Shown piece after piece: positions 8,563 to 22,550 of a stretch of DNA of 42,630 nucleotides. The position numbers were made by a program, and so were the translations under genes. The stretch is from Nitrospira sp. (GTDB lineage Bacteria; Nitrospirota; Nitrospiria; Nitrospirales; Nitrospiraceae). Each line of letters opens with the position of its first letter. Position 1 is the stretch's first letter. The stretch lies in NCBI GenBank assembly GCA_029881435.1, contig JAOUMR010000019.1:1-42630 (forward strand), given 5' to 3'. A model generated the notes under the pieces. The model worked only from the letters and a program-made list of their open reading frames with translations. It was not told the DNA's origin and ran no database searches.

Positions 8563-9276
8563 ATGGATTGGTTACGGGAACCAGGGTTTTTCGGGACTCA
8601 TGCCACGATCGGAGCGGATTTAAGTCAGCTGATGGCGACGCTGTTTACCGGGTTATTCATCGTCGGGTGGTTCCAAGCTCGAAGGCGACAGGCTGATGCG
8701 CACCATTGGCTGATGCTGGGCGGCATGATTTCCATGCTCAGCTTCTTCATCGCCTATTATCTGTTTCGACAGCTTGGCGTCCTGGCGTTTGAGGGGAAAG
8801 AAGGATTTGGTGGTTCGCAGTCACTCTATGATTATGTCTTTATTCCGGTGCTCACACTCCACATCATTCTTGTCATCATCGGTCTGATCATGGCGGTCTA
8901 TATGATTGTGTTGGGCTTTCGTTCGCAGCAGTTCATCGATGGCATTCGATCTCTTCGAGAATCCCAGGTACTCACGACATGGAAAAAGATCGGCCTCATT
9001 TTCGGTGGGATTGCCACGGTCGTGCTCGGGCTCTTTTTCTCGCGTGTTGTGGCGGCGGGGTTTTCGATGCGGAAGCTGGAAGTCTATCTGGTGTTTCTTC
9101 TTCTAGTGGCGTTCGTGTTTGCGATCGAGATGACCATTCAACGGATTTGGCCTGATGGGGCAAAGCGACATCGGGCGCTCGGTCGGTTCACGATGGTTAT
9201 CTATTGCGTGTTGTTCGTCACCGGGAGCTTTACGTACACGATGCTGTATGTCCTTTACCCAGGGAAGATTGGATAG
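8563..9276 (+). CDS. DUF420-type polytopic membrane protein (CtaM-like)
   Basis: This 237-residue protein has about six or seven hydrophobic segments and conserved-looking histidines (AHHWLM, TLHIIL, RHRALGR). It resembles the DUF420 family, one member of which (CtaM of Staphylococcus) is needed for function of a haem-copper oxidase. It begins a run of closely spaced plus-strand genes leading to a bd-like oxidase at 10875, which fits a role in oxidase assembly or haem handling; that role is inference. The ribosome site is weak. Confidence 0.65.
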   Translation: MDWLREPGFFGTHATIGADLSQLMATLFTGLFIVGWFQARRRQADAHHWLMLGGMISMLSFFIAYYLFRQLGVLAFEGKEGFGGSQSLYDYVFIPVLTLHIILVIIGLIMAVYMIVLGFRSQQFIDGIRSLRESQVLTTWKKIGLIFGGIATVVLGLFFSRVVAAGFSMRKLEVYLVFLLLVAFVFAIEMTIQRIWPDGAKRHRALGRFTMVIYCVLFVTGSFTYTMLYVLYPGKIG

Positions 9277-9285
9277 CCCATTGAG

Positions 9286-9780
9286 ATGCTGACGTGCGGC
9301 TGTGGTCGTTGGATGCATACAGAGGGGATCGAAGAACGGATGAACTCCGAAGGTGCGCCTCAGGGGTTCATCCGATCGGAGTGCCGAGGTTGTGGGCTGA
9401 CGGTCGGTGTTGATGTGCCGGAGGGGCAGGCCGATGGGCTTGTCGATCGAATGTTGTGGACCGATGACGCATTGCACCGATTGGATCGCATGCCGCCGTA
9501 TCTGGCTGTGCTGGTCCGGGAAGACGTGGAGCACGATATCCGTCGTCACGGTCAGCGCGTCGTCACGCTTGATACGCTGCTACGTTCACGAACTGGGGAG
9601 CGTATTGAATGGGACTCTGAAGCGGAAGGGCGCTTGAAACGAGTGCCGGCTCCGGTTCGTGCCATGGCGCGGATCGAGCTTGAGCGGACAGCTGCGGATC
9701 GCGGCCTATCACGTGTGACGGTAGCTCTGATGGAAGAGGTCAAGGCCAAGTATTTTGGAATGGGGGCTCAAAAAGCTTAA
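9286..9780 (+). CDS. Zinc-ribbon plus PCP_red-domain protein
   Basis: A soluble 164-residue protein. The N-terminus has CGC (residues 4-6) and CRGC (about 33-36), a likely four-cysteine metal site. The C-terminal 60 residues, from IEWDSEAEGRLKRVPAPVR to the end, match the PCP_red helical domain best known from the C-terminus of light-independent protochlorophyllide reductase subunit B and also found alone in non-photosynthetic bacteria. Function is unknown; the setting next to an oxidase gene suggests tetrapyrrole or redox-protein maturation. It starts nine bases after the previous gene. Confidence 0.65.
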   Translation: MLTCGCGRWMHTEGIEERMNSEGAPQGFIRSECRGCGLTVGVDVPEGQADGLVDRMLWTDDALHRLDRMPPYLAVLVREDVEHDIRRHGQRVVTLDTLLRSRTGERIEWDSEAEGRLKRVPAPVRAMARIELERTAADRGLSRVTVALMEEVKAKYFGMGAQKA

Positions 9781-9798: not shown

Positions 9799-10869
9799 AT
9801 GTTGCACAGAATGGCATTACGAGTGCTTCCGAGTCTGAGTCTGGCGGTGACGGAAGATTCTGTACGCCGAAAAAAGCGGATCGTGATGTTCTTACCCGGG
9901 CTGATCGCCTTTGGGGTGTATCGGCTGGCGAAGTACCTTGTGCCGATCACGGATCCCCTCGTGCTCTTGGCGGTCAGCAGTATGGTAGCAATGGTCACGG
10001 CACTCTTGGCCTATCGGGTTGGGCGTGCAGTACCCTGGTCTTCCATTGTGAGTCAAGACGGCTGGCATCTCCTCGGCTGGTTGGTCGGTTGGATCGGTGC
10101 CGCATATGGCATTCAGCTATCTCTGTTGGTTCTGACCTTATTATGGATCATGCACTACAGTTACCTCCAGCACCCTGAGGGGCCGGCGATGATGGCGATC
10201 ATCATCTCCTGCACGTCCGTTGCGCGCGATGCGTTTGAAATCGGGCATGTGCGTAAGCTTTCAGTGTTGGGCCGGCCGTTTCTCACTTTCCCGGATGGAG
10301 AGCAGTTTCGCCTGTTGGTGCAGCGCCGGGCTTTGCAATTGGGGCCCTGGGCCGTGGTGGGTCTGGGGATCGGTGCGATTGCGTCGTTGTCTGGGGTGGT
10401 GATCGTCGATGCACACAACGCCGCCCTGGTCCAGCTGCTGGGCGTGACGATTCTGGGTGGTGGCCTCGCCCTTTGCGCGTATTTAGGAGGGCTGAATCCA
10501 TCCACCTCTTGGGTACACACCTTCCGTCAGACGACACCGGCTGAATTGCTGAAATATTGGTGGTGGCCTGGGATGGCGTTTGCCTCTACCTATTATCTCG
10601 TGGCCATGGGGCTCGTGTTATTTGTTGCGAGGCAGCCGGTGATTACGTTGGGTGTAGCCGCTGCAATGGGTGCGTTTGTGGCGGCCATGATGGGTGTGTA
10701 CGGATACTACCTGGGGCATCGCCGTTACGTGGAAAACGAAGAGGCTCCACAACTTTCGAGCGGTATGTTGCGCTGTCCTTTCGTGATGGGGATTCTTGGA
10801 AAACAGGTTAGTTCGCCCCAACGTGTTGGGGCAGAGTTGGCCTTCGAGAAGAACGGAATAAAGGGGTAA
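9799..10869 (+). CDS. Polytopic membrane protein of unknown function
   Basis: A 356-residue protein with about eight hydrophobic segments, an Arg/Lys-rich cytoplasmic N-terminus and a soluble C-terminal tail after YGYYLGHRRYVE. I do not recognise the family. Motifs that may matter are IMHYSYLQHPEGP and the soluble loop GRPFLTFPDGEQFRLLVQRR. It sits 18 bases after the PCP_red gene and five bases before oxidase paralogue 1, so it is almost certainly co-transcribed with both and may be a partner subunit or assembly factor. Confidence 0.7.
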   Translation: MLHRMALRVLPSLSLAVTEDSVRRKKRIVMFLPGLIAFGVYRLAKYLVPITDPLVLLAVSSMVAMVTALLAYRVGRAVPWSSIVSQDGWHLLGWLVGWIGAAYGIQLSLLVLTLLWIMHYSYLQHPEGPAMMAIIISCTSVARDAFEIGHVRKLSVLGRPFLTFPDGEQFRLLVQRRALQLGPWAVVGLGIGAIASLSGVVIVDAHNAALVQLLGVTILGGGLALCAYLGGLNPSTSWVHTFRQTTPAELLKYWWWPGMAFASTYYLVAMGLVLFVARQPVITLGVAAAMGAFVAAMMGVYGYYLGHRRYVENEEAPQLSSGMLRCPFVMGILGKQVSSPQRVGAELAFEKNGIKG

Positions 10870-10874
10870 GAGGT

Positions 10875-12749
10875 ATGGGGCGAGTAGGTCGGGTGGTACG
10901 TTCCGTGTTCGGTGCCGCTATTGGCATCGCCTTTCTTGCGATCGCGATGGGATACATGTGGAACGGCCCTGCTCTGTCCTTTGCGGAGTCTTCGGTCGAT
11001 GTCTATTTCGGGACGGAGGGCACCCCACAAGGCCCTGCGGCTCCAGCTCCTCACGAAACCGTCTATCCGCAGATCAGTTCGTTGGACAGTCGAGTGCTCA
11101 TATGGTTCGTGACCCAGCAACATACGTATTTCGGCGGGTTTGTTCTCGCGCTTCCGTTGTTTTGCGCGCTGATCGAGTTCCTTGGATTAACAACGAAGAA
11201 GCCGGCGTTGGCGCTGCGCTACGACGGCCTGGCACGAGATCTTGCGAAGGTCGCCGTGCTGGCCCTATCCGTGACCGCACTTATCGGTAGCCTGATGCTC
11301 ACTCTGTTCATCACGCTCTATCCCAGTTTCATGAGCTACATGGGCGGGACATTCAAGGCATTCATGCCGCTCTACGCCGCGGTGTTGGTCGGAGAAGCGT
11401 TCCTACTAATCGTCTACTACTACAGCTGGAATCGGATGGCCGAGCGAGGCCTGAAGTGGATCCACGCGGCGATCGGCATCTTCGCGAACATCATAGGCAC
11501 CGCGTTACTGATGCTGGCGAACTCCTGGTCCTCCTTCATGATGTCGCCGGCCGGAGTGGATGCACAGGGGAGGTTTTTAGGGAACATCTGGCATCTCTTG
11601 CATTCCGCTCTCTGGAACCCCTTGAACGTCCACCGGTTTCTCGCGGACATCATGTCTGGTGGAGCCGTTGTGCTGGCGTATGCCTGTTATCGGTTTTTTA
11701 CCAGCAAGACCGACGAAGAACGAGCCTACTTTGACTGGGTGGGCTATGTCTTTTTGTTTGTCACGGTGTGCGCGCTTCTTCCCATGCCGATCGCAGGGTA
11801 CTGGCTGATGAAATCGGTGTTCGTGTTTCGTCAGACCATGGGTGTCACGATGATGGGTGGGTTGCTTACGTGGCTGTTTGTGGTTCAGGCGCTCCTGATC
11901 GGAGTCCTCTTTTTAGGGATCAACTACTATCTCTGGCAGAGTATGGCGAGGATCAAGGGAGGGGAACGGTATCAGCCCTATTACCAACTTTTGTTGGGCG
12001 TTCTGATGTTGGCACTCTTCATTTGGCTGACGCCGCACACCCTACTGATGTCTGCCACCGAGGTGAAAGCCATGGGAGGCGCTCAGCATCCCGTGATCGG
12101 CAACTATGGAGTGATGTCGGCCAAGAATGGTGCCGTCAATATCATGATTCTCGTCACCGCACTCAGCTTCTTGTATTATCGTCGCGCGAACCGAACGATG
12201 ACCATCTCGTGGGTCTGGACCGGAAATACGCTGATCACGGTACTCTATGTCGTTGGTGTGTTGAATGTGATCTGGTTGTCCATCTATGGGTTTTACTTGC
12301 CGGCCAAAGTCCGTGTCGGGCTTTCAGCTCCGCAAGCCCTTACGACGTTGACCGTGATTATAGTTGGGGTGGTGGTCAACCGTTTGATGCTTCGAGGCGC
12401 TGTGGTGCATGGACCGATTCAGTGGGGGAAGATCCCGCTGCGAGGCATGGTCGGATTATTTGGGCTAGCGGCGTCCTTCAGTTGGGTCATGGGTTTGATG
12501 GGCTACATTCGTTCCTCGGGACGTTTGTCCTGGCATGTCAGCGAGCTGATGGCGGATGTCTCCCCATGGGCCTTTACCCCGGACCTTCAATACGCCACGA
12601 AAATGGTGACTCTGAATATGGTGGTGTTCTGGGCGGCAGTTCTCGTGTTGTTTTGGATGTGTCAGAGGGGGCAGCAGCCTGCGATGGGTGAGGAATTCCA
12701 AGCGGAACAGGCTCCTTTACTCTCGCCTGTTCCCTCGCAAGAAACCTAA
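10875..12749 (+). CDS. Cytochrome bd-like oxidase subunit, paralogue 1 (diverged)
   Basis: A large membrane protein (624 residues, about 14 hydrophobic spans) homologous along its length to the protein at 16331. Both share a CydA-like N-terminal helix with a conserved His (H83 in TQQHTYFGG), ANSWSSFMMSPAG, WNPLNVHRF, WLTPHTLLMS and HPVIGNYGVMSAKNGAVN. It differs from paralogue 2 at a signature helix: H182 there is P165 here, and GWDKM becomes SWNRM. It begins with a signal-anchor-like helix and a Pro-rich linker. Proteins of this kind were proposed as a terminal oxidase in Nitrospira; whether this copy reduces oxygen is uncertain. Confidence 0.8.
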   Translation: MGRVGRVVRSVFGAAIGIAFLAIAMGYMWNGPALSFAESSVDVYFGTEGTPQGPAAPAPHETVYPQISSLDSRVLIWFVTQQHTYFGGFVLALPLFCALIEFLGLTTKKPALALRYDGLARDLAKVAVLALSVTALIGSLMLTLFITLYPSFMSYMGGTFKAFMPLYAAVLVGEAFLLIVYYYSWNRMAERGLKWIHAAIGIFANIIGTALLMLANSWSSFMMSPAGVDAQGRFLGNIWHLLHSALWNPLNVHRFLADIMSGGAVVLAYACYRFFTSKTDEERAYFDWVGYVFLFVTVCALLPMPIAGYWLMKSVFVFRQTMGVTMMGGLLTWLFVVQALLIGVLFLGINYYLWQSMARIKGGERYQPYYQLLLGVLMLALFIWLTPHTLLMSATEVKAMGGAQHPVIGNYGVMSAKNGAVNIMILVTALSFLYYRRANRTMTISWVWTGNTLITVLYVVGVLNVIWLSIYGFYLPAKVRVGLSAPQALTTLTVIIVGVVVNRLMLRGAVVHGPIQWGKIPLRGMVGLFGLAASFSWVMGLMGYIRSSGRLSWHVSELMADVSPWAFTPDLQYATKMVTLNMVVFWAAVLVLFWMCQRGQQPAMGEEFQAEQAPLLSPVPSQET

Positions 12750-12757
12750 GAAAGGGA

Positions 12758-13420
12758 ATGACGTCTATGGAGCGCCGTGTGTCGATGTATGCTGCAATTG
12801 TTCTGGGGCTCATTACGACTGTTTGTGTTTGGCAGGGCCCTGCAGCGGCCGAAGGACAGGTGTTGGTATTGGAAGATTTTCAGGCCAAGGAAGCTGATGG
12901 ATTTCCTTCGCAGTGGGATCACGAAAATCAGCGAAGTCAATCGAAAGGGCGTGACGCGTATAAGGTGCAGGCGGAGAATGGGGCCAGCTTCCTCTCAGCT
13001 AAAGATGCAGGCCAGCGGATCAAAAAAAAGAAAATCGATTGGGATCCTAAAGCGTATCCGATCCTGACCTGGCGATGGCGTCTCAATAAGGCTTCGAGTG
13101 GGACCGAACCACTTGCCGCCGTCTATGCTTCCCTAGACACCGATCTGCTCTTCATCCCTGTTTTTACGAAATACGTGTGGAGTAGTTCCAAACCCGAAGG
13201 CACGTTCACGGAAGGCGGTATGTTCAGCGGTTCGGAAATCGTCGTGCAGAGTGGGACGAAGGAAATCGGGCAGTGGTTTGAAGAACGGGTCAACGTGTAC
13301 GATGATTTTAAACGAATTCACGAGCATGAGCCGGCGGCGAAGGCCTGGGGCATCTCGATCATCGCGGCTCCCGGTGTCGAGATCGATTTTGGCCCGCTGA
13401 TTGCTGCTCCAGTCAACTAG
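12758..13420 (+). CDS. DUF3047-family periplasmic protein
   Basis: A secreted protein of 220 residues with a signal peptide ending near AAAEG (about residue 33). The body, with GFPSQWDHE, TWRWRLNK and a C-terminal beta-rich part with WGISIIA, matches DUF3047 proteins, which have a predicted beta-sandwich fold and no assigned activity. It starts nine bases after oxidase paralogue 1, so it belongs to that operon; ATG 12767 is an equally good start. A role in the periplasmic part of the oxidase complex is inference. Confidence 0.72.
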   Translation: MTSMERRVSMYAAIVLGLITTVCVWQGPAAAEGQVLVLEDFQAKEADGFPSQWDHENQRSQSKGRDAYKVQAENGASFLSAKDAGQRIKKKKIDWDPKAYPILTWRWRLNKASSGTEPLAAVYASLDTDLLFIPVFTKYVWSSSKPEGTFTEGGMFSGSEIVVQSGTKEIGQWFEERVNVYDDFKRIHEHEPAAKAWGISIIAAPGVEIDFGPLIAAPVN

Positions 13421-13456
13421 GAATCTGGATTCTCAGACTCGGGAAGGATTCGAGCT

Positions 13457-13819
13457 GTGGTGACGAAAGGAAAGGCGTTCGATATTGCTCTAGGGATGGC
13501 CGTGATGGGTACTGTCGGTACGCTCATCGGCCAGACGATGGGTGGTGGGCTGATGCCGCTGGCTATCGCCATTGGAGTCGTGCTCGGAGTTGTGATTGGC
13601 TTTCTTGGCGGCCGTCGATTTCTTGTCAGTATCCTAGCGGGGACGGTCATCGGCGGCGTATTAGCCTGGCTGATGGCGGGTGTTGATCGTATCTGGGTCG
13701 GCGCCGGAGCTGGAGCTGCCATGGGAGGATTTCTTGGTGTGCAGATTTCAATGTTGCTTGATGTGCGCGCTGCGAGGAAGGCGGCGACCGAACAGGGGCA
13801 GACATCGGCATCGTCGTAG
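13457..13819 (+). CDS. Small glycine-rich membrane protein
   Basis: A 120-residue protein starting at GTG 13457 behind GGAAGGA. It consists of three or four hydrophobic segments packed with Gly, Ala and Met (GTVGTLIGQTMGG, GVVLGVVIGFLGG, GAGAGAAMGGFLGVQ), giving GxxxG-type helix-packing repeats, then a short charged tail. I do not recognise the family. It lies between the DUF3047 and FGE-like genes on the same strand and is likely part of the same unit. Confidence 0.62.
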   Translation: MVTKGKAFDIALGMAVMGTVGTLIGQTMGGGLMPLAIAIGVVLGVVIGFLGGRRFLVSILAGTVIGGVLAWLMAGVDRIWVGAGAGAAMGGFLGVQISMLLDVRAARKAATEQGQTSASS

Positions 13820-13848
13820 CTTGTGATGACACGGCTGTAGAGGTATTT

Positions 13849-14742
13849 GTGGAAAATAAGGGTGTTCTCATCGGGTCCATCATCTTTGTCTTTGCCTCAT
13901 TTTTTCTGATGATCGGCCTGCTGGGCTATGAGTCATATAAGGCGAAGCAAATGAAAGAGCTTGCTGCATCGATCAAGTCGGAAGCTCGACCGACGGCGGG
14001 TAGCGTGCCGCTTCATGACTTCTCGATGTACAAGACGAAGATTGGGGATGAAGGTCGAGAAATGGTTCAGATCCCTGAAGGTCCGTTTACGATGGGGAGC
14101 AACGATGGTGATCCGGACGAGGCTCCCGAGCATCAAGTCTACCTAAAGGGGTTCTATCTCGACCGAAAAGAAGTCACGCAAGACGAATACATGCGGTTTG
14201 CGAAGATGACCAAGCGGGCTAAGCCAAGGATCGAGGTGTTCGACGACGACCAGTCGAAGATTTTGAAGCCGGAATTCTCGGCGATGAGTGTTTCGTGGGA
14301 TGAGGCGGTAGCCTACTGCAAGTGGGCTGGCAAGCGGCTTCCCACGGAGGCTGAATGGGAGAAGGCTGGTCGTGGTGAAAGCAGGAGGACATACCCATGG
14401 GGAGACAAATTTGTCTCCAAAGCCTCCAATGTGGACGGCAGCGAGGACGGCTATAAGTATTTGGCGCCACCTGGATCGTTCGAGGCAGGACGAAGTCCCT
14501 ATGGCCTCTATGATATGACGGGCAACGTTGCCGAGTGGGTTGAAGACTCTTACGACGAACACTATTACAAGAAATCACCATTTCGTGACCCTCAAGGGCC
14601 AGAGAGCGCAGACCTCAAAGTTGTCCGCGGAGGTTCATGGCGGGAAACCGAACATGCTGCAAGGTTGTCTAAGCGATTCGCGGCCAAGCATTGGCGGACA
14701 GACGTGACAATCGGCATTCGTTGCGCAAGTGATCTTGAATAA
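13849..14742 (+). CDS. Formylglycine-generating-enzyme (SUMF1)-like protein, copy 1
   Basis: This 297-residue protein has an N-terminal signal anchor (residues 5-25) and an FGE-sulfatase domain: VQIPEGPFTMGS, EVTQDEYMRFA, VSWDEAVAYCKWAGKRLPTE, YGLYDMTGNVAEWV and VRGGSW. The RGGSW block and what follows lack the paired cysteines that make true formylglycine-generating enzymes catalytic, so it is more likely a structural or binding FGE-fold protein, as is common in anaerobic and nitrifier respiratory clusters. The start is GTG behind GAGGT. A second copy follows after 28 bases. Confidence 0.82.
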   Translation: MENKGVLIGSIIFVFASFFLMIGLLGYESYKAKQMKELAASIKSEARPTAGSVPLHDFSMYKTKIGDEGREMVQIPEGPFTMGSNDGDPDEAPEHQVYLKGFYLDRKEVTQDEYMRFAKMTKRAKPRIEVFDDDQSKILKPEFSAMSVSWDEAVAYCKWAGKRLPTEAEWEKAGRGESRRTYPWGDKFVSKASNVDGSEDGYKYLAPPGSFEAGRSPYGLYDMTGNVAEWVEDSYDEHYYKKSPFRDPQGPESADLKVVRGGSWRETEHAARLSKRFAAKHWRTDVTIGIRCASDLE

Positions 14743-14770
14743 ATGAACAGAGCTTCGCGGCTAGATTGGT

Positions 14771-15667
14771 ATGTTAGAAGCTAAGTTTAAACTGATGTTT
14801 CTGTTGGTAGTACTGGCGTGTGCTGCCATGCCTATCGTTGCGATTCTGCGAGGTACGACCACGACCCCGTATGAGAAGTCGACACCCGGAAGCAGCACCG
14901 AAGCTGATCCAGAGACAGACGCCGCTTCCGGAGAGGAGCCAATTCAGGAAGAAGTGGTCACCATTCCATCTGGGCCGTTCGTTCGTGGAACGAATGGCGG
15001 TGGATTCGACGAACAACCACAGCGGACCATCTTCCTTGATGTCTTTTCGATCGATCGCTACGAAGTGACCAACCATCAATACCAACAATTTGTTGTGGCT
15101 ACCGGTCATCGAAAGCCAGGGTTGCCTTCGCGCTATGCCAAGAGTGGTAGCAAGGTGCGGGGCGTCAATCAGCCAGCTGTCTATGTTTCGTGGGAAGATG
15201 CAGCGGAATACTGTCGGTGGAGAGGTAAGCGGCTCCCGACTGAAGCGGAATGGGAGAAGGCTATGCGCGGTTCGGACGGGAGGCTCTGGCCATGGGGGAA
15301 TGATGAGCAGCCTCATAGCGCAAATTGGGCCCGCGTACAGGACGGCCATGAGGTCTCTGCACGGGTGGGGACATTTGCGACTGATAAGAGTCCGTATGGA
15401 GTTATGGATGGGGCCGGTAATGTCATCGAATGGGTGGCTGATTGGTACAACGAGACCTATTACAAGGATTCTCCGGAACAGAATCCTCAAGGTCCCGAGT
15501 ATGGAACCTATCGTGTGCTTAGAGGTGGGGGCTATACGACGACCGGTTTGGATATCCGGATTACCAGCAGGAGCAAGATGATGCCGGATTTTCGAGATGA
15601 GACGATTGGGTTTCGCTGCGCAATTTTAAAGGTGGAAGCACACGAAAGCGGAGAGGAAAACATGTGA
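14771..15667 (+). CDS. Formylglycine-generating-enzyme (SUMF1)-like protein, copy 2
   Basis: A 298-residue relative of the gene just upstream, again membrane-anchored by an N-terminal helix and followed by a low-complexity Ser/Thr/Glu linker (residues 30-60). The FGE domain shows VTIPSGPFVRGT, EVTNHQYQQFV, VSWEDAAEYCRWRGKRLPTE, GNVIEWVADW and LRGGGY. The catalytic cysteine positions are again missing. The tandem pair probably arose by duplication. A role in assembling or stabilising periplasmic respiratory proteins is inferred from position only. Confidence 0.82.
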   Translation: MLEAKFKLMFLLVVLACAAMPIVAILRGTTTTPYEKSTPGSSTEADPETDAASGEEPIQEEVVTIPSGPFVRGTNGGGFDEQPQRTIFLDVFSIDRYEVTNHQYQQFVVATGHRKPGLPSRYAKSGSKVRGVNQPAVYVSWEDAAEYCRWRGKRLPTEAEWEKAMRGSDGRLWPWGNDEQPHSANWARVQDGHEVSARVGTFATDKSPYGVMDGAGNVIEWVADWYNETYYKDSPEQNPQGPEYGTYRVLRGGGYTTTGLDIRITSRSKMMPDFRDETIGFRCAILKVEAHESGEENM

Positions 15668-15672
15668 AGAAA

Positions 15673-15777
15673 TTAGAGAAAATCAAAGTAGTATAGGATC
15701 AAAAACACGGCCAAAATGATGTTGACAACCATACCGACCAAAACTATAATGTCAAACACTTTTGAGTTCTTCGTCAC
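15673..15777 (-). CDS. Single-span membrane microprotein (34 residues)
   Basis: A GTG start at 15777 is preceded by AGGAG five bases upstream and opens a 34-residue frame: a short polar N-terminus (TKNSK) and one long hydrophobic helix ending in aromatic residues (LYYFDFL). It lies on the minus strand, tail to tail with the second FGE-like gene. Size and shape recall small subunits such as CydX, CydS or CcoQ, but there is no sequence match I can claim. The good ribosome site and clean helix argue that it is real. Confidence 0.5.
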   Translation of the reverse strand: MTKNSKVFDIIVLVGMVVNIILAVFLILYYFDFL

Positions 15778-15902
15778 GGTTTCTCCTGTTGTTTCGCACA
15801 CAAACGACGAAATTTGATAACACAGGGCTGGATGCCTGTCAAGAAAACGCAAGAATTCTGAATTACCCACCAATCTATATCTGATTTGGAGCAAGCACTA
15901 CG

Positions 15903-16028
15903 ATGGCAACATCTACTACTCCCGACAGCGACCTCAAAATAAAAATAGGCAAGATGATTTTTTACATCACCTGTGCCGTGGGTTTATGGTTTTTCTATTG
16001 GTTCGCTGGAATTCAGTGTCCTTGTTGA
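15903..16028 (+). CDS. Single-span membrane microprotein ending in CPC (41 residues)
   Basis: ATG 15903, with GGAG about 11 bases upstream, begins a 41-residue frame: a polar start (ATSTTPDSDLKIKIGK), one aromatic-rich transmembrane helix (IFYITCAVGLWFFYWFAG) and a C-terminal IQCPC. The two terminal cysteines as C-P-C could hold a metal, a haem thiol or a disulfide. It sits in the gap before oxidase paralogue 2. I know of no named family. That it is translated is likely but unproven. Confidence 0.5.
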   Translation: MATSTTPDSDLKIKIGKMIFYITCAVGLWFFYWFAGIQCPC

Positions 16029-16114
16029 GCTAGCAAAATTAGTCATGACTTCGAGATGTTATGCCGCGTAGCTTTTTTGGCTGATAAACGCCGTTAGTAG
16101 AGGAGAAGAGTGAA

Positions 16115-16246
16115 ATGAGCGCGCTGAATAATCCTGTCATTGCTGTAATTGTCTCTCTGATTATCGCGGTTGGCTACTTTACGCTAGTCGATCATTATTT
16201 GATGGATATGCAGGGGCTGGACTACTGGTACTTGTTCCGTCAGTAA
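16115..16246 (+). CDS. Single-span membrane microprotein (43 residues)
   Basis: ATG 16115 follows AGAGGAGAAGAG, a good ribosome site. The 43-residue product is one hydrophobic helix (VIAVIVSLIIAVGYFTLV) followed by a polar, aromatic C-terminus (GLDYWYLFRQ). It is the gene immediately before bd-like oxidase paralogue 2, 84 bases apart and on the same strand, the classic position of a small oxidase subunit. Membership of the oxidase complex is inference. Confidence 0.6.
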   Translation: MSALNNPVIAVIVSLIIAVGYFTLVDHYLMDMQGLDYWYLFRQ

Positions 16247-16330
16247 GCACAAGTGATGTAGTCAGGGTTTCTGAGAAGTTTCGTAAGTTTATTACAATTT
16301 TAACGTTCAGTGCGTCTAAGGAGGTATTCC

Positions 16331-18250
16331 ATGGGCCTATTAACCGGCAAGCGCGTGTTTTCGATTATGGCGCTCTGCATGATGGTTGGCCTCCTTCTGC
16401 TTCCGATCGTTGTGGCTCTGCCTTCGCCGGCTATCGGTGAAGAAGCTCCTGCTGTCGGCGATGAGGCAAAGAAGGATGGGGAGAAGGTTGAGAAGGGTCG
16501 GGATGTCTATTACAAGACCGAGGGTATTGTCGTCGGCGCCCCTGCCCCTAAGACCACGGATGGTCCTAAAGATTATCCGCGATACAACTTTGAAAGTCGT
16601 GTTCTGATCTGGTTTGCCAACCAGCAGCATCTCTATTATGGCAGCTTCGTGTTGGCAGTCCCGATCTTTTGCATGATCATCGAGTTCATGGGCGTCGTGA
16701 CCAAGGATAAGGCGCTTGCGAAGCGGTATGATCAGCTAGCCTATGACTTTATCAAAATTAGTCTCACGGCCTACTCATTAACGGCGATCTTGGGCGGCAT
16801 ATTGATTTTCACATTCCTGACGCTCTATCCGGCATTCTTCTCCTATTTGTCAGGTATTTTCCGCCCTGTCATGCATATCTATGCGTTGATGTTCGTTGCG
16901 GAGAGTGGAACCCTGTACATCTATTATTATGGTTGGGACAAGATGAGGGAAGGGTTCCTGAAGTGGATTCACCTTAGCATGTCGGTGGTCCTCAATATCA
17001 TCGGCACTCTGCTCATGTTCCTGGCCAACTCCTGGATCGGATTTATGATGTCGCCGGCTGGCGTTGATGAGCAGGGGCGGTTTCTTGGAAACATCTGGCA
17101 TGTCATCCATACTGCCTTATGGAATCCGCTTAACCTTCACCGGATCCTTGGCAATATGGCCTTCGGAGGCGGTGTGGTGGCGGCCTATGCAGCGTACAAA
17201 TTCTTGGCGTCAAAGACGGATGAAGATCGAGCTCATTATGACTGGATGGGTTATATCGCAATGGCGCTTGGTGTGGCCTTCCTGATTCCACTGCCGTTTG
17301 CAGGTTACTGGCTGATGCGCGAAGTCTATGCGTATCGCCAGCAGATGGGGATCACGTTGATGGGAGGGTTGCTCGCCTGGCTCTTTATTATTCAGGCGAC
17401 CATGATCGGCATTCTGTTTCTCAGTACAAATTATTATCTCTGGCAGGCAATGGGTCGGATGCGCGGCGCAGAGAAATACCAGCGCTATATCAAGTATCTC
17501 GTATTTTTGCTTGCCTGCGGCTACATCGTGTTTATTACGCCCCACACGATGGTCATGTCGCCCGCTGAATTAAAGGCAATGGGAGGTCAACAGCACCCGG
17601 TGTTGGGTAACTACGGGGTTATGTCCGCGAAAAATGGTGGTATCAACGTTATTATTACAACCACTGTGTTGAGCTTCGTCTGGTATATGCGTGGCAATAA
17701 AGTATCCACAGTCTCATGGGCGAAGTTTGGCAATATCTTCATGGGCGTCTTCTTTGTTTGCGCGTACATTAATATTATCTGGCTTGCTGTTTATGGGTAT
17801 TACATTCCAGCGAACGTGCGGGTTGGTTTGTCTGTCCCGCAAGTCGCGACCACTCTGTCGTGCCTGTTCTTCATGTTTGCCCTCAACAGTGTGATGATGA
17901 GGGGGGCGAAGCAGATGGGTCCAATTGAGTGGGGAAAGATTTCTGCTCGGTCGCAATATGCGCTCATTATGCTTGCGACCGCCTTTACCTGGATGATGGG
18001 TTTGATGGGCTACATTCGCTCATCCGTCCGGTTGTTCTGGCACGTCAATGAAATCATGAGGGATAACTCGCCATGGGCCTATACTCATACGGTCGGGTTT
18101 GCGGCCAATATGATTTCAGCCAACGTATTATTTTTCTGGATTAGTATTCTGTTTGTCTTTTGGTTAGGCAGCTTAACGGCTAAAAAGGTTCCAGTTGAAT
18201 CCAAGGCGGGAATTCCAGGAAGTGTCCCGCAGCCGGCTGCGAGTCATTAA
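16331..18250 (+). CDS. Cytochrome bd-like oxidase subunit, paralogue 2
   Basis: A 639-residue protein with an N-terminal signal-anchor, a charged linker (residues 40-75) and about 14 membrane spans. CydA-like features visible by eye are RVLIWFANQQHLYYG (H100, matching the N-terminal haem-ligand His of CydA), an EFxG segment, MHIYALMFVAES (H182) leading to YYYGWDKM, FLANSWIGFMMSPAG (compare ANGW of CydA) and WNPLNLHR. The canonical haem b558 His of CydA does not line up clearly. It corresponds to the bd-like oxidase proposed in Nitrospira as a terminal oxidase. The start at 16331 follows AAGGAGG; the in-frame upstream start has none. Three cytochrome genes follow. Confidence 0.88.
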   Translation: MGLLTGKRVFSIMALCMMVGLLLLPIVVALPSPAIGEEAPAVGDEAKKDGEKVEKGRDVYYKTEGIVVGAPAPKTTDGPKDYPRYNFESRVLIWFANQQHLYYGSFVLAVPIFCMIIEFMGVVTKDKALAKRYDQLAYDFIKISLTAYSLTAILGGILIFTFLTLYPAFFSYLSGIFRPVMHIYALMFVAESGTLYIYYYGWDKMREGFLKWIHLSMSVVLNIIGTLLMFLANSWIGFMMSPAGVDEQGRFLGNIWHVIHTALWNPLNLHRILGNMAFGGGVVAAYAAYKFLASKTDEDRAHYDWMGYIAMALGVAFLIPLPFAGYWLMREVYAYRQQMGITLMGGLLAWLFIIQATMIGILFLSTNYYLWQAMGRMRGAEKYQRYIKYLVFLLACGYIVFITPHTMVMSPAELKAMGGQQHPVLGNYGVMSAKNGGINVIITTTVLSFVWYMRGNKVSTVSWAKFGNIFMGVFFVCAYINIIWLAVYGYYIPANVRVGLSVPQVATTLSCLFFMFALNSVMMRGAKQMGPIEWGKISARSQYALIMLATAFTWMMGLMGYIRSSVRLFWHVNEIMRDNSPWAYTHTVGFAANMISANVLFFWISILFVFWLGSLTAKKVPVESKAGIPGSVPQPAASH

Positions 18251-18327: not shown

Positions 18328-19635
18328 TTGGGTAACTTGATTGCAGAAGCAGTTTCAATGGGTTGGATGGCTCTTGCCATCATTGCGGGTCTGCTAGTTT
18401 ATTTTCAGGTGTCCATCAGCGATCCGGCTGCAAAAAAGCGAGCTGTATTTAAGACATTCATTGGAATGGTCTCTTGCTTGCTTCTGTTCATGGCAATTGC
18501 AAATTATAAAACGAATTTCTACGGGGAAAGTCGGCTGCTTCCCGTCTCTCTTGTGATGATTACCGTGACAACGTTTGTCATGGCGCTGTACTTCACCAAT
18601 TTGAGCGCCTTGCTGAAGATAGGCGGGATGATGTTTTTTATAGCTGCGTTTCTTTCCGGCTATGGAAACTGGTTGCCTCAGGTTGAAGGTGGCTTTCCGC
18701 CAGTAGAGGAAAAGAAAACGTGGGATTCGATGACCCCGGAACAGCTGGCTGATGAAGGTGAGAAAATTATCTTTGGGGGAGTTGGGAAGAATAAGGAGCA
18801 AGGTGCAATCGGCAAGGGGCAATGCCCACTGTGCCACGCATTCCATGCCGGGATGTTGGGTGAACGAGCTCCCAACCTATTAGGTATTCCTGAGAGAGCA
18901 GGTCAGATACTGGAAGATCCTAAATACTCCAAGGGGGATCCGTCGAAGCGTGAGTATGAACAGAAGGAAGCTTTCCCAGGGTCCGGCACGGCCGAAAGCG
19001 GGCTTGAGTATATCGCTGAATCCCACGCATGCCCAAGCTGCTATGTCGTAGCTGGCTATGGAGTGAAGGGGACGAACGATAAGCAGAGTCCAATGCCGGC
19101 AATTCATAAGCCACCAATTTCTCTTAGTCTTCCTGAACTGGCAGCAGTAGATATCTGGCTCTACAGTCGTGAGGGACGCGATGCCCCGTCGTTTGAAGAA
19201 ATTGTGAAAGCCTATGAGAAGTTTATTCCCGAAGCTGACCGTCCTAAGCAAGAAGAGGAAAAGGCTGCTGGGGCGACTTCACTGATGGCTGATGGGACTG
19301 AGCCAGTGGACCAAATTTTAGCTAAAGCGCAATGTGTGGCCTGCCACACCATCCCTGGAATCCCTGGGGCTATCGGGACAATCGGTCCCAAGCTGGAGGA
19401 AGGGACGACCGCTGCACTTCGTCTCAAGGACCCGGAATATAAAGGCACAGCCAAATCAGCTACGGAATACATCATGGAATCGATCGTCGATCCCAGCGCC
19501 TTTGTGGTGAAGCCGTTCCCTGATAACACCATGCCAAAAGTCTTTGGGCAAAAGTTGAGCGCTGGTGCCTTGAAAAAAATCGTCGACTATTTATCACAAG
19601 TGAAGACCGGAGCACCGCCACCAAAAATTTCGTAG
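18328..19635 (+). CDS. Membrane-bound dihaem cytochrome c
   Basis: A 435-residue protein with about four N-terminal membrane helices (residues 1-120) and two cytochrome c domains facing the periplasm. Haem sites are CPLCH (C166-H170) and CVACH (C336-H340). The domains look like a duplication: each has an ESI-type helix and a later Met-Pro ligand segment (SPMPAI, NTMPKVF). In domain 1 the loop that reads DPSA in domain 2 is CPSC (C235, C238). The start is TTG 18328 behind a strong AGGAGG. It follows oxidase paralogue 2 by 77 bases and likely carries electrons to it. Confidence 0.87.
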   Translation: MGNLIAEAVSMGWMALAIIAGLLVYFQVSISDPAAKKRAVFKTFIGMVSCLLLFMAIANYKTNFYGESRLLPVSLVMITVTTFVMALYFTNLSALLKIGGMMFFIAAFLSGYGNWLPQVEGGFPPVEEKKTWDSMTPEQLADEGEKIIFGGVGKNKEQGAIGKGQCPLCHAFHAGMLGERAPNLLGIPERAGQILEDPKYSKGDPSKREYEQKEAFPGSGTAESGLEYIAESHACPSCYVVAGYGVKGTNDKQSPMPAIHKPPISLSLPELAAVDIWLYSREGRDAPSFEEIVKAYEKFIPEADRPKQEEEKAAGATSLMADGTEPVDQILAKAQCVACHTIPGIPGAIGTIGPKLEEGTTAALRLKDPEYKGTAKSATEYIMESIVDPSAFVVKPFPDNTMPKVFGQKLSAGALKKIVDYLSQVKTGAPPPKIS

Positions 19636-19677: not shown

Positions 19678-20715
19678 ATGAAAGCATTGATGTCACTCAG
19701 CGCCTTGATTGGAGTAGCTGGGCTTCTCCTTCTGGGTGGGATGGTTCTCGATATTGTCCCATCCACTACCATACGGTTGGTGGAAGGCTATATGCCCATG
19801 CAGTTGTTGCTTGAAATGGGATGTTTCGTCCTTGGATTTGCGGGGTTGAGTTATATCTTGAATGCCATGGGAATGGCCATTCCACGGTTTTGGCAAGGCA
19901 TAGGGTTCTGGGTGTTCTTCCTGTTGTACCTCAAATATCGCGTCTATCCACCGATCCCATTCAGCGTGCGAGCCATGTATGGGACCGTGTCTCTTGTCGC
20001 CGTCTTTATGTGGGTCTCTGCTAACGAAGAAGATTGGCAGAAATTCAAGCAGCCTATCATGAACGTGCTCGATGCGCAGACTGGCATGAATAAACTCCTA
20101 CGCTATGCGTATCTTGTCCTCCTGCCGATCCTCATTGGGGGGTTTTCATTCAACGCGATGATGCCGAAATCTGAAGAGCCAATTGAGTTAAGAACCGTTC
20201 ATCCGGCACCCCCAGCGAGCACAAAAGTCCATGGCAAGACCTATACGTTGCAAACTTCACAAAATCCGTATCGCGTAAATACTGAGGGGAAGTACGATCA
20301 AGAATATACAAACGCCAATATTGTTGAACAGGGAATGGGGCGTTTGATGAAACCTAATGCCAATCCATGGGATGAAACGAACCAGGGTTACCTGAAGTAT
20401 GTACGAGAGGGTGGGGAGATCTTCTTTCAGAATTGCCATTTCTGCCATGGAGATAACCTGAATGGACGAGGCTTGCACGCCTTTGCCTTCAATCCAATTC
20501 CCGCAAACTTTACCGATCCTGGTACGATCGCACAGCTTCAAGAAACCTTTATCTTCTGGCGTGTTGCGAAGGGTGGTATCGGATTACCTAATGAGGGATT
20601 CCCTTGGGCCTCGGTCATGCCTCCCTGGGAACAGCATTTGACTGTTGATGAAATCTGGAAGGTAATTTTGTTCGAATATTGGCATACCGGCTACTACCCA
20701 CGAACCTGGGATTAG
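19678..20715 (+). CDS. Membrane-bound monohaem cytochrome c
   Basis: A 345-residue protein with four or five N-terminal hydrophobic segments (to about residue 160) and a soluble C-terminal cytochrome c domain with one haem site, CHFCH (C253-H257), and a probable Met ligand near ASVMPPWE. The fusion of a membrane module to a single cytochrome c domain recalls cytochrome subunits that accept quinol electrons, but I do not recognise the membrane part. ATG 19678 has an AAAGGGAG ribosome site. It is third in the oxidase paralogue 2 cluster. Confidence 0.85.
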   Translation: MKALMSLSALIGVAGLLLLGGMVLDIVPSTTIRLVEGYMPMQLLLEMGCFVLGFAGLSYILNAMGMAIPRFWQGIGFWVFFLLYLKYRVYPPIPFSVRAMYGTVSLVAVFMWVSANEEDWQKFKQPIMNVLDAQTGMNKLLRYAYLVLLPILIGGFSFNAMMPKSEEPIELRTVHPAPPASTKVHGKTYTLQTSQNPYRVNTEGKYDQEYTNANIVEQGMGRLMKPNANPWDETNQGYLKYVREGGEIFFQNCHFCHGDNLNGRGLHAFAFNPIPANFTDPGTIAQLQETFIFWRVAKGGIGLPNEGFPWASVMPPWEQHLTVDEIWKVILFEYWHTGYYPRTWD

Positions 20716-20777: not shown

Positions 20778-22550
20778 ATGATGGACAGCATAACGTATAA
20801 GGCCGGGTTCATGACGGCTGCTGCCTTTGGGCTCTTTCTAGGCGCCAGCTTCGGAAGCACGGTTGTTTCGGCACAAGAGATGCCGGAAGGGTTTAAAAAG
20901 GGAGATCTCGCGCCACCCCCTTCCGCTGAAATGATAGAGGCTGGGAAACGGGTGTATTTCACTAAGTGCGTCTGGTGTCACGGTGTAGACGGTGCCGGTG
21001 ACGGCCCTGGTGCTGATCGACTTTGGCCCAGGCCGAGAAACTTCAATCAAGGAACCTTCAAGATTCGGCATACCGCGAGCGGTGAGCTTCCCCTGTTTGA
21101 CGCAAAAAAGCCAACTGATGGCCAAAACGATCTCTTTGAGACGGTTACACATGGATTGCCCGGATCTGCCATGCCACCGTGGGAAGGTATCCTGACAGAA
21201 GAACAGCGACTCCAAGTTTTATCCTTTGTTACGACTGAACTAGTGAAGGATCGTGAGTTTACAGATAAGGAGTCGGAAACCCAGACAGTCCTTAACCTCG
21301 GAGCGCTCAATCCGAAGGAGGCAACTGAAGAGAGTATAAAGCGTGGTGCGGAACTTGTCGTAGAAAAGAAATGTGTTGAATGCCATGGGATGGAAGGACG
21401 GGGCGATGGAAACGCCTTCAACCTGAAGGATGATTGGGGTTTTTCTATCCAACCGGCCGATTGGCACAAGTGTTGGAATTTTCGTGGTAGCCGTCAGGAT
21501 CCATATAATGTAAGGAACATCTTCCGGACGTTCTCAACCGGCGTCAATGGCACACCCATGCCATCATTCGCCGATAATACGACGGTCGATGAACGGTGGG
21601 ATATCGCCAACTTTGTCAACTCCCTTTGTGAACGAGATTCGTTGGGCAATCCTCTTCCAATCGATCCACTGACCGATAAGCCCAAAATCAATTTTGTGAT
21701 TCCGTCTGATCCTGTGGAAGGAGAAATCCCAACAGATATTGAAGCTGAGGCTTGGGCCAAAGCTCCGAAGCGAATTGTTGCGATGGGTGGGCAGATTACC
21801 CATAAGCCCAGGAACTTTGTGAATCGGATCGACGATATCTGGGTGCGGTCCCTCTATAATGAGCAACACATTGTCTATTTGCTGGAATGGGATGATCGGA
21901 CCAAGAGTGTAGCAGAGGGAAGGCTTCCGTGGGAGCCGACAGAGGTGAATATTGACGTGAAGGAGCAAGACCCAAAGACCGGTGAAGAAGGGTCGATCGC
22001 TTCTCACCAAAATAATTACACTGTGTATAACGATGCGATTGCTATCCAAACAGCGGTGAAGTGGAAAGAATTACCGGCTCCAATCAAGCCTCGATATTTG
22101 TTCGGCACTAATGAACAATTCCCAGTTGATATTGTGAAGTGGGAAGCCGATGGGTCTCTCCGTGCGTTCTTGGGTACTGGATGGGATAAGGACTTCGAGG
22201 AACGCGATAACTACGAAGAGGACATGAAGCTCTTATCGGCTGAATGGAAGAATGGCCGCTGGTATGTGATGATTCAGCGTCCCGTGGGGAATAATAAGGA
22301 TCAAGATTACGATGAAGACACCTTCTTTGAGGTGGGGCAATACATCCCGACCGTGTTCTTCGCATGGGATGGGCACAATGGTGATGCAGGAAGAAAGATG
22401 GCCGTCTCTGCGTTCTATTACACGTTTATGAATCCACCGGTTCCCCAGGAAACCTATATCTATCCAGTGGTTATCGCTGTGGGTGTGGTGCTTCTGGAAG
22501 GATGGGTCTTGACTCGTCGCGCAAACAAGAAGAAGGGGAAGATGCTTTAG
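20778..22550 (+). CDS. Dihaem c plus haem-b (NxrC/EbdC-like) electron-transfer protein
   Basis: A 590-residue exported protein. After a signal peptide (cleavage near VSAQ) come two cytochrome c domains with CVWCH (C64-H68) and CVECH (C199-H203), then from about residue 315 a beta-rich ethylbenzene-dehydrogenase-gamma-type domain (EWDDRT, DAIAIQTAVKW, YIPTVFFAWDGHNGDAG), and a C-terminal membrane anchor with a basic tail. This domain family includes the haem-b subunits of ethylbenzene dehydrogenase and the putative NxrC of nitrite oxidoreductases. No NxrA or NxrB lies nearby, so it probably belongs to the oxidase cluster or is a dispersed NxrC paralogue. Confidence 0.87.
   Translation: MMDSITYKAGFMTAAAFGLFLGASFGSTVVSAQEMPEGFKKGDLAPPPSAEMIEAGKRVYFTKCVWCHGVDGAGDGPGADRLWPRPRNFNQGTFKIRHTASGELPLFDAKKPTDGQNDLFETVTHGLPGSAMPPWEGILTEEQRLQVLSFVTTELVKDREFTDKESETQTVLNLGALNPKEATEESIKRGAELVVEKKCVECHGMEGRGDGNAFNLKDDWGFSIQPADWHKCWNFRGSRQDPYNVRNIFRTFSTGVNGTPMPSFADNTTVDERWDIANFVNSLCERDSLGNPLPIDPLTDKPKINFVIPSDPVEGEIPTDIEAEAWAKAPKRIVAMGGQITHKPRNFVNRIDDIWVRSLYNEQHIVYLLEWDDRTKSVAEGRLPWEPTEVNIDVKEQDPKTGEEGSIASHQNNYTVYNDAIAIQTAVKWKELPAPIKPRYLFGTNEQFPVDIVKWEADGSLRAFLGTGWDKDFEERDNYEEDMKLLSAEWKNGRWYVMIQRPVGNNKDQDYDEDTFFEVGQYIPTVFFAWDGHNGDAGRKMAVSAFYYTFMNPPVPQETYIYPVVIAVGVVLLEGWVLTRRANKKKGKML

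Follow-up and report, generated by a model that had tools for sequence, protein, structure and literature searches.

Two cytochrome bd-like paralogues of Nitrospira: a conserved histidine/proline difference that is very unlikely to mark a lost haem ligand, and other signs that the second copy has diverged

Cytochrome bd-like (bd-like) proteins are central to the proposals made for the route by which electrons pass in Nitrospira from nitrite to O2, and backwards to supply reducing power. The window analysed here, which is the whole of a 42,630-nucleotide stretch of Nitrospira sp. DNA (contig JAOUMR010000019.1, assembly GCA_029881435.1), encodes two such proteins, called BD4 and BD3 below. The two genes and the codons on which much of the argument turns are as follows.

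10875..12749, + strand: BD4 (matches bd-like_4), CydA-like membrane protein with H83, P165, Y167, E174, SWNRM, and H253 (open reading frame, Pfam, PDB fold matches, codon check)
16331..18250, + strand: BD3 (matches bd-like_3), CydA-like membrane protein with H100, H182, Y184, E191, GWDKM, and H270 (open reading frame, Pfam, PDB fold matches, codon check)
11367..11369, + strand: codon of P165 (BD4), the equivalent of BD3 H182 (alignment, codon check)
11394..11396, + strand: codon of E174 (BD4), the Glu107 equivalent, intact (alignment, codon check)
16874..16876, + strand: codon of H182 (BD3) (alignment, codon check)
16901..16903, + strand: codon of E191 (BD3), the Glu107 equivalent (alignment, codon check)

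Both reading frames start at ATG, giving 624 residues for BD4 and 639 for BD3, the latter nested in an open reading frame that opens at GTG 16310. An earlier reading made from the letters alone (the sequence-only reading) had described two bd-like paralogues that align along their length, and this is borne out: BLASTP aligns them at 53% identity across 561 residues (641 to 647 bits, far above chance), and both match Pfam Cyt_bd_oxida_I (PF01654; 60.7 bits for BD4 and 70.7 bits for BD3, against a cut-off of 26.2), in the N-terminal half only. A codon-by-codon check also found every motif listed in that reading, with H83/H100, P165/H182, SWNRM/GWDKM, and the later histidines in place. AlphaFold2 models of the two paralogues are of moderate confidence (predicted local distance difference test scores of 77 and 76, predicted template modelling scores of 0.78 and 0.77). 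Their PDB matches at E < 0.001 are exclusively CydA chains; template modelling scores to CydA are moderate, at about 0.5 to 0.6 by target length, and the whole-length superpositions are poor.

The pair is already known and named in the literature, a point that the sequence-only reading did not make. According to the accessible text of Mundinger et al. 2019 (PMC6606698), the four-copy set of N. moscoviensis has bd-like_1 and bd-like_2 in one region, bd-like_3 clustered with two c-type cytochromes and a dihaem alternative NxrC, and bd-like_4 a few genes off; bd-like_3 and bd-like_4 are reported there for all Nitrospira. The window shows the same cluster, with the second bd-like copy likewise a few genes away, and gene order in the N. 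moscoviensis locus of our set (L137) is identical to it. Because cluster layout and protein types are the same, we equate BD3 (16331) with bd-like_3 and BD4 (10875) with bd-like_4, a match made by layout and not by comparison of locus tags. The same genome (G000, in which the window is contig C68) encodes two further bd-like proteins, also absent from the sequence-only reading, on contig C135, beside Rieske and cytochrome b genes. On residue-level divergence, on loss of the Glu107 equivalent, and on which organisms other than Nitrospira have the second copy, the accessible text of PMC6606698 is silent.

The sequence-only reading had singled out the helix before the CydA-like GWD motif, where BD3 has H182 and BD4 has P165, and had proposed that BD4 lost a possible haem or metal ligand there. 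The contrast itself proved real at clade level. Our orthologue set held 116 BD3 (at least 58% identical), 86 BD4, and 9 bd-like_2 proteins; L138:2750-4444, in which the BD4 frame is disturbed near the signature helix, probably by an assembly error, was left out of the counts. Position 182 (BD3 numbering throughout) is His in 113/116 BD3 and Ala in the other 3, while the BD4 equivalent is Pro in 84/86, Leu in one, and Gly in one, and never His. It is this conservation on one side, with replacement in all BD4 orthologues seen, that would speak for H182 as a haem or metal ligand in BD3 and P165 as its loss, leaving BD4 with a different substrate or a regulatory role.

The register against canonical CydA argues against such a ligand. 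We aligned profiles of the BD3, BD4, and bd-like_2 families with canonical CydA (28 sequences from the phylum and that of E. coli), and the similarity is confined to BD3 residues 89 to 337. H182 and P165 both align with E. coli Ala97, two residues before the position of Glu99, which is Tyr in both copies (Y184 in BD3, Y167 in BD4). The equivalents of E. coli Glu107 are E191 and E174, both window copies keeping the Glu; those of His19 are H100 and H83; and those of His186, the haem b558 ligand in CydA, are H270 and H253. A one-residue alignment gap against E. coli CydA sits at Leu101, described in a review as an insertion that the Geobacillus enzyme is without (PMC8951039). A CydA encoded in another Nitrospira genome (L210) also spaces its two Glu residues by 7, aligns gap-free, and has Gly at position 182. 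The register may be off by one residue, but even then H182 would miss the Glu99 position. Projected on an ideal helix, the conserved side bears E191, Y184, and W202, and H182 points away from it, at 180 degrees to E191 and 160 degrees to the other two. The site would accordingly be turned from the haems, a placement taken from ideal geometry and the alignment and not from distances in the models.

Variation at the site tells against the ligand as well. One comparison is with bd-like_2 (NIDE0901-like; here L006:14764-16785), which is 42 to 43% identical to BD3. Like BD3 it has Tyr at the Glu99 position and retains the C-terminal histidines and the counterparts of His19, Glu107, and His186. It is unlike BD3 in lying at a locus with Rieske/cytochrome b genes and in having Leu, Ile, Val, or Tyr at position 182 instead of His (n = 9), with Phe as well among the group's close relatives. 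This is the group that holds the proposed terminal oxidase (complex IV) of Nitrospira, which in the accessible text of PMC3578206 and PMC6606698 is bd-like_2 and not bd-like_3. Relatives outside BD3, BD4, and bd-like_2 carry Ile, Tyr, Trp, Phe, Leu, or Ala. In family f30, an early Nitrospirales branch with NxrA, BD3 has Ala at position 182 in some genera and His in another, and the Ala carriers retain the whole cluster. The BD4 orthologues of f30 depart from proline at the P165 position.

L255:11884-14331, L256:7337-9379, L257:2-2440, and L258:13010-15052: f30 BD4 orthologues with Gly
L245:3-1361: f30 BD4 orthologue, a fragment, with Trp

Absence of His is therefore general in BD4, with proline limited to one part of BD4 and His limited to the BD3 group; P165 as a definition of the BD4 clade is ruled out by the Gly or Trp of f30. 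Ligand loss at P165 we rejected on register, helix face, and site variation: the H/P difference is real, but as a lost haem ligand it is very unlikely.

These comparisons also make His at position 182 a derived state of BD3, so that "loss" in BD4 reads the change in the wrong direction or, at most, is unproven. It is quite conceivable, at a little under even chances, that H182 was gained in BD3 alone and serves a structural purpose or proton transfer, for instance where BD3 touches a cytochrome or a second protomer, and that the corresponding contact differs in BD4; this would be compatible with the explanation we prefer below. His is absent outside the BD3 group and conserved inside it. The proline that opens the helix at position 179 (conservation 99% in BD3, 100% in bd-like_2) is lost in BD4, where proline at 182 occurs only in families f1 and f2. 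Weighing on the other side are the tolerance of Ala in f30 and a branching order of BD3, BD4, and their Tyr-bearing relatives that is not firmly resolved.

That order comes from a tree built with the signature-helix columns removed. BD4 forms a clade in it (support 100/99), containing a Pro sub-clade (100/100) and a Gly/Trp sub-clade (100/100), so the idea that the H-to-P change might define a clade holds to the extent that the P165 copy belongs to a well-supported one and fails in that proline marks only a sub-clade. Paralogues with Tyr at position 182 occur in other orders of the class (L063:7898-9820 on the - strand, L065:9332-11353, L260:11495-13447, L246, L247, and L248), in L063 divergently placed upstream of the BD3 cluster. 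They are possibly sister to BD4, a grouping recovered with support 88/96 on a long branch. A separate tandem bd-like pair at L057:7668-11781 has Trp at position 182 and Phe replacing the Glu107 equivalent, and one of its genes is split by an in-frame TAA.

Functional divergence of BD4 is nevertheless supported on grounds other than the H/P difference. That difference is only one among 54 at positions where each group is at least 90% conserved but the two groups disagree (203 are conserved alike). The candidate haem ligands are not where the divergence lies: leaving aside rows with gaps, frameshifts, or ambiguous letters, the His19 equivalent is kept in every complete row except one aberrant BD4 row and the His186 equivalent throughout, and the later BD3 histidines H405, H422, and H571 are also retained in BD4. 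The equivalent of Glu107, the proposed terminal proton donor for O2 reduction in E. coli (PMC13189123), is invariant in BD3 (116/116) and lost to Thr, Val, or Gln in 14/86 BD4, scattered across several branches. Its loss as a general BD4 property is ruled out, 72/86 keeping Glu, the window genome included. Ratios of nonsynonymous to synonymous substitution rates (dN/dS) for the same genome pairs are 0.050 to 0.091 in BD4 and 0.014 to 0.031 in BD3, about 2.4- to 3.6-fold apart where both are computable, and median identity in the most distant band is 63% for BD4 versus 81% for BD3. As judged from these alignments, BD4 is under looser constraint than BD3. Selection on it is still strongly purifying despite the faster evolution, and a decaying copy is ruled out by the dN/dS of 0.05 to 0.09 and the intact frame. 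The distinct role that the sequence-only reading gave the P165 copy thus finds some backing in the dN/dS and in the Glu107-equivalent losses of its clade, though not by way of a lost ligand, and the repeated Glu107-equivalent loss among BD4 relatives, which that reading did not list, is a better divergence signal than the H/P change.

Beyond the N-terminal half, both proteins depart further from the quinol oxidases. The Q-loop quinol site (Lys252, Glu257) and the GRQPW region were not recognizable, the MAFFT-aligned positions of Lys252 and Glu257 carrying Leu or Met, and neither were equivalents of Met393 and Glu445 in BD3 and BD4, the Met393 region aligning unreliably; no CydB gene adjoins BD3 or BD4. 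Compared with E. coli bd-I CydA, then, they are alike in an N-terminal half with the His19, Glu107, and His186 equivalents and have it as their closest solved fold, and they are unlike it in the Tyr at the Glu99 position, the absence of Q-loop similarity, and the lack of an adjacent CydB. BD3 and BD4 are members of the cytochrome bd superfamily without the canonical quinol-binding Q-loop, and the literature files such proteins under OR-N. OR-N-type CydA, or CydAA', refers to nitrifier CydA-superfamily proteins without a quinol site, proposed to form paralogue pairs using cytochrome c (Murali, Gennis and Hemp 2021, via the accessible parts of PMC12342949 and PMC10839748); the pair in those parts is OR-N1 and OR-N2 (NIDE0901-like), which is not clearly BD3/BD4.

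The genes around the two paralogues are these.

8563..9276, + strand: DUF420 membrane protein, first gene of the Nitrospirales-conserved BD4 block (Pfam DUF420, synteny)
9286..9780, + strand: PCP_red-domain protein, BD4 block (Pfam PCP_red, synteny)
9799..10869, + strand: membrane protein of unknown family (g9799), BD4 block (weak sub-threshold DUF4010 match, synteny)
12758..13420, + strand: DUF3047 protein, BD4 block (Pfam DUF3047, synteny)
13457..13819, + strand: small hydrophobic protein (g13457), BD4 block (synteny)
13849..14742, + strand: formylglycine-generating-enzyme-like protein with an N-terminal hydrophobic anchor, BD3 neighbour (GldK/PvdO/EgtB models, all far below cut-offs; synteny)
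14771..15667, + strand: second formylglycine-generating-enzyme-like protein, BD3 neighbour outside Nitrospirales too (resembles the preceding gene; synteny)
18328..19635, + strand: membrane-anchored c-type cytochrome with two CxxCH and one CPSCY (Pfam, motif check)
19678..20715, + strand: membrane-anchored c-type cytochrome with one CxxCH (Pfam, motif check)
20778..22550, + strand: alternative NxrC (matches alt_NxrC_2), 590 residues, two CxxCH haem motifs and EB_dh (Pfam Cytochrom_C and EB_dh, motifs)

Size and domains of the 20778 product agree with alt_NxrC_2 of PMC6606698 Table 2. In the cytochrome at 18328-19635, CPSCY stands where a third CxxCH haem motif might once have stood, and a PCP_red domain, so called after protochlorophyllide reductase, occurs here in a non-phototroph, within a protein of the conserved BD4 block (9286-9780). 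Across Nitrospirales the order runs DUF420, PCP_red, g9799, BD4, DUF3047, g13457, the two formylglycine-generating-enzyme-like genes, BD3, the two cytochrome c genes, alternative NxrC, and a mobA-like gene. It is kept in the loci long enough to show it, the exceptions being a few stand-alone extra BD3 copies. Such an extra BD3-like copy, 74 to 80% identical and with the usual neighbours missing, occurs in L072, L157, L172, and L174.

The two halves of this arrangement differ in distribution. In the phylum sample, all 46 genomes of families f1 and f2 have both BD3 and BD4, and BD4 is in none of the six other class members; NxrA (mostly at 83% identity or more) is in 38 of the 46 and none of the six, missing NxrA being common in draft genomes. 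Family f30 has the BD4 block, BD3, and NxrA. Family f31 of the same order (L253, L254; G229, G250) has the BD3 cluster without the BD4 block and gave no NxrA match, and is possibly a non-nitrite-oxidising sister family; the other orders of the class likewise have the BD3 cluster without the block. Among the class families examined, then, the BD4 block is found in f1, f2, and f30 only, and all three have NxrA. The contig scan for homologues returned 80 loci, all in Nitrospirota, and did not reach the homologues of Nitrospina and anammox bacteria. Because this co-distribution amounts to one event on the tree, the association is suggestive and not a statistical proof. Since the H/P difference is probably not ligand loss, experiments are better steered to the Glu107-equivalent site, lost repeatedly in BD4 relatives, and to the BD4 gene block, whose distribution shared with NxrA provides a second handle.

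All functional statements on the two proteins are drawn from sequence. Our preferred explanation, which taken whole we hold to be probable with a good deal of room for error, is that the pair is bd-like_3/bd-like_4, that BD3 forms a complex with its cytochromes, that BD4 is an accessory protomer or belongs to a sister complex, and that H182/P165 is no ligand loss. Gene order and the literature suggest that BD3 and the three downstream c-type cytochromes, one of them the alternative NxrC, most likely form a complex in the membrane through which nitrite oxidoreductase (NXR) and the membrane chain exchange electrons. Electrons from nitrite would reach the BD3 haems by way of the alternative NxrC and the c-type cytochromes, with O2 or quinone as final acceptor. 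BD4 is an old paralogue in which the candidate haem ligands persist; it would most likely serve, in diverged form, as an accessory protomer of either the BD3 complex or a sister complex, alternatives between which the evidence does not decide.

Several points weigh against this explanation. The facing of H182 is taken from an ideal helix and an alignment at 17 to 19% identity, and strong conservation of H182 extends to the BD3 proteins of other orders, so it has some role there. Most BD4 orthologues (72/86), including E174 of the window, keep the Glu107 equivalent. BD4 has its own conserved gene block and is only a putative member of the BD3 complex, and the accessible text of PMC6606698 does not state a transcript rank for bd-like_4.

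The gene block raises the possibility, which we regard as rather unlikely, that BD4 stands at the centre of a separate complex, assembled with its DUF420, PCP_red, and unknown membrane-protein neighbours and having its own electron donor or acceptor. DUF420, PCP_red, g9799, BD4, DUF3047, and g13457 do stay one block in Nitrospirales, BD3 and the cytochromes occur without it in other orders and in f31, and BD4 keeps its candidate haem ligands; yet wherever a locus is long enough to include both, the block sits immediately upstream of the BD3 cluster and on its strand, BD3 accompanies BD4 in every f1/f2 genome of the phylum sample, and the Glu107 equivalent was lost several times in BD4. A further reading, and a slightly more doubtful proposition again, is that BD4 is a catalytically relaxed second protomer specific to nitrite-oxidising Nitrospirales: as nitrite oxidation arose in the order, it would have turned a BD3-only complex into a BD3/BD4 heterodimer, which would act beside nitrite oxidoreductase as a bacterial equivalent of CydAA'.

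The acceptor of the BD3 complex bears on a last alternative, also compatible with the preferred explanation and in our judgement not far from an even prospect: the complex would not reduce O2 and would instead return nitrite electrons to quinone (reverse electron transport) or anchor NXR. The accessible text of PMC3578206 and PMC6606698 proposes this, partly because anaerobic anammox bacteria share the cluster, and the proposed terminal oxidase is bd-like_2, not bd-like_3. Set against it are the unrecognizable canonical quinol site, the Glu107 equivalent that BD3 keeps, a proton donor for O2 reduction in E. coli (PMC13189123), and the occurrence of BD3 clusters in class members without detected NxrA. 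The same sources, in their accessible text, describe the BD3 cluster as highly transcribed and propose that it links NXR with the membrane chain.

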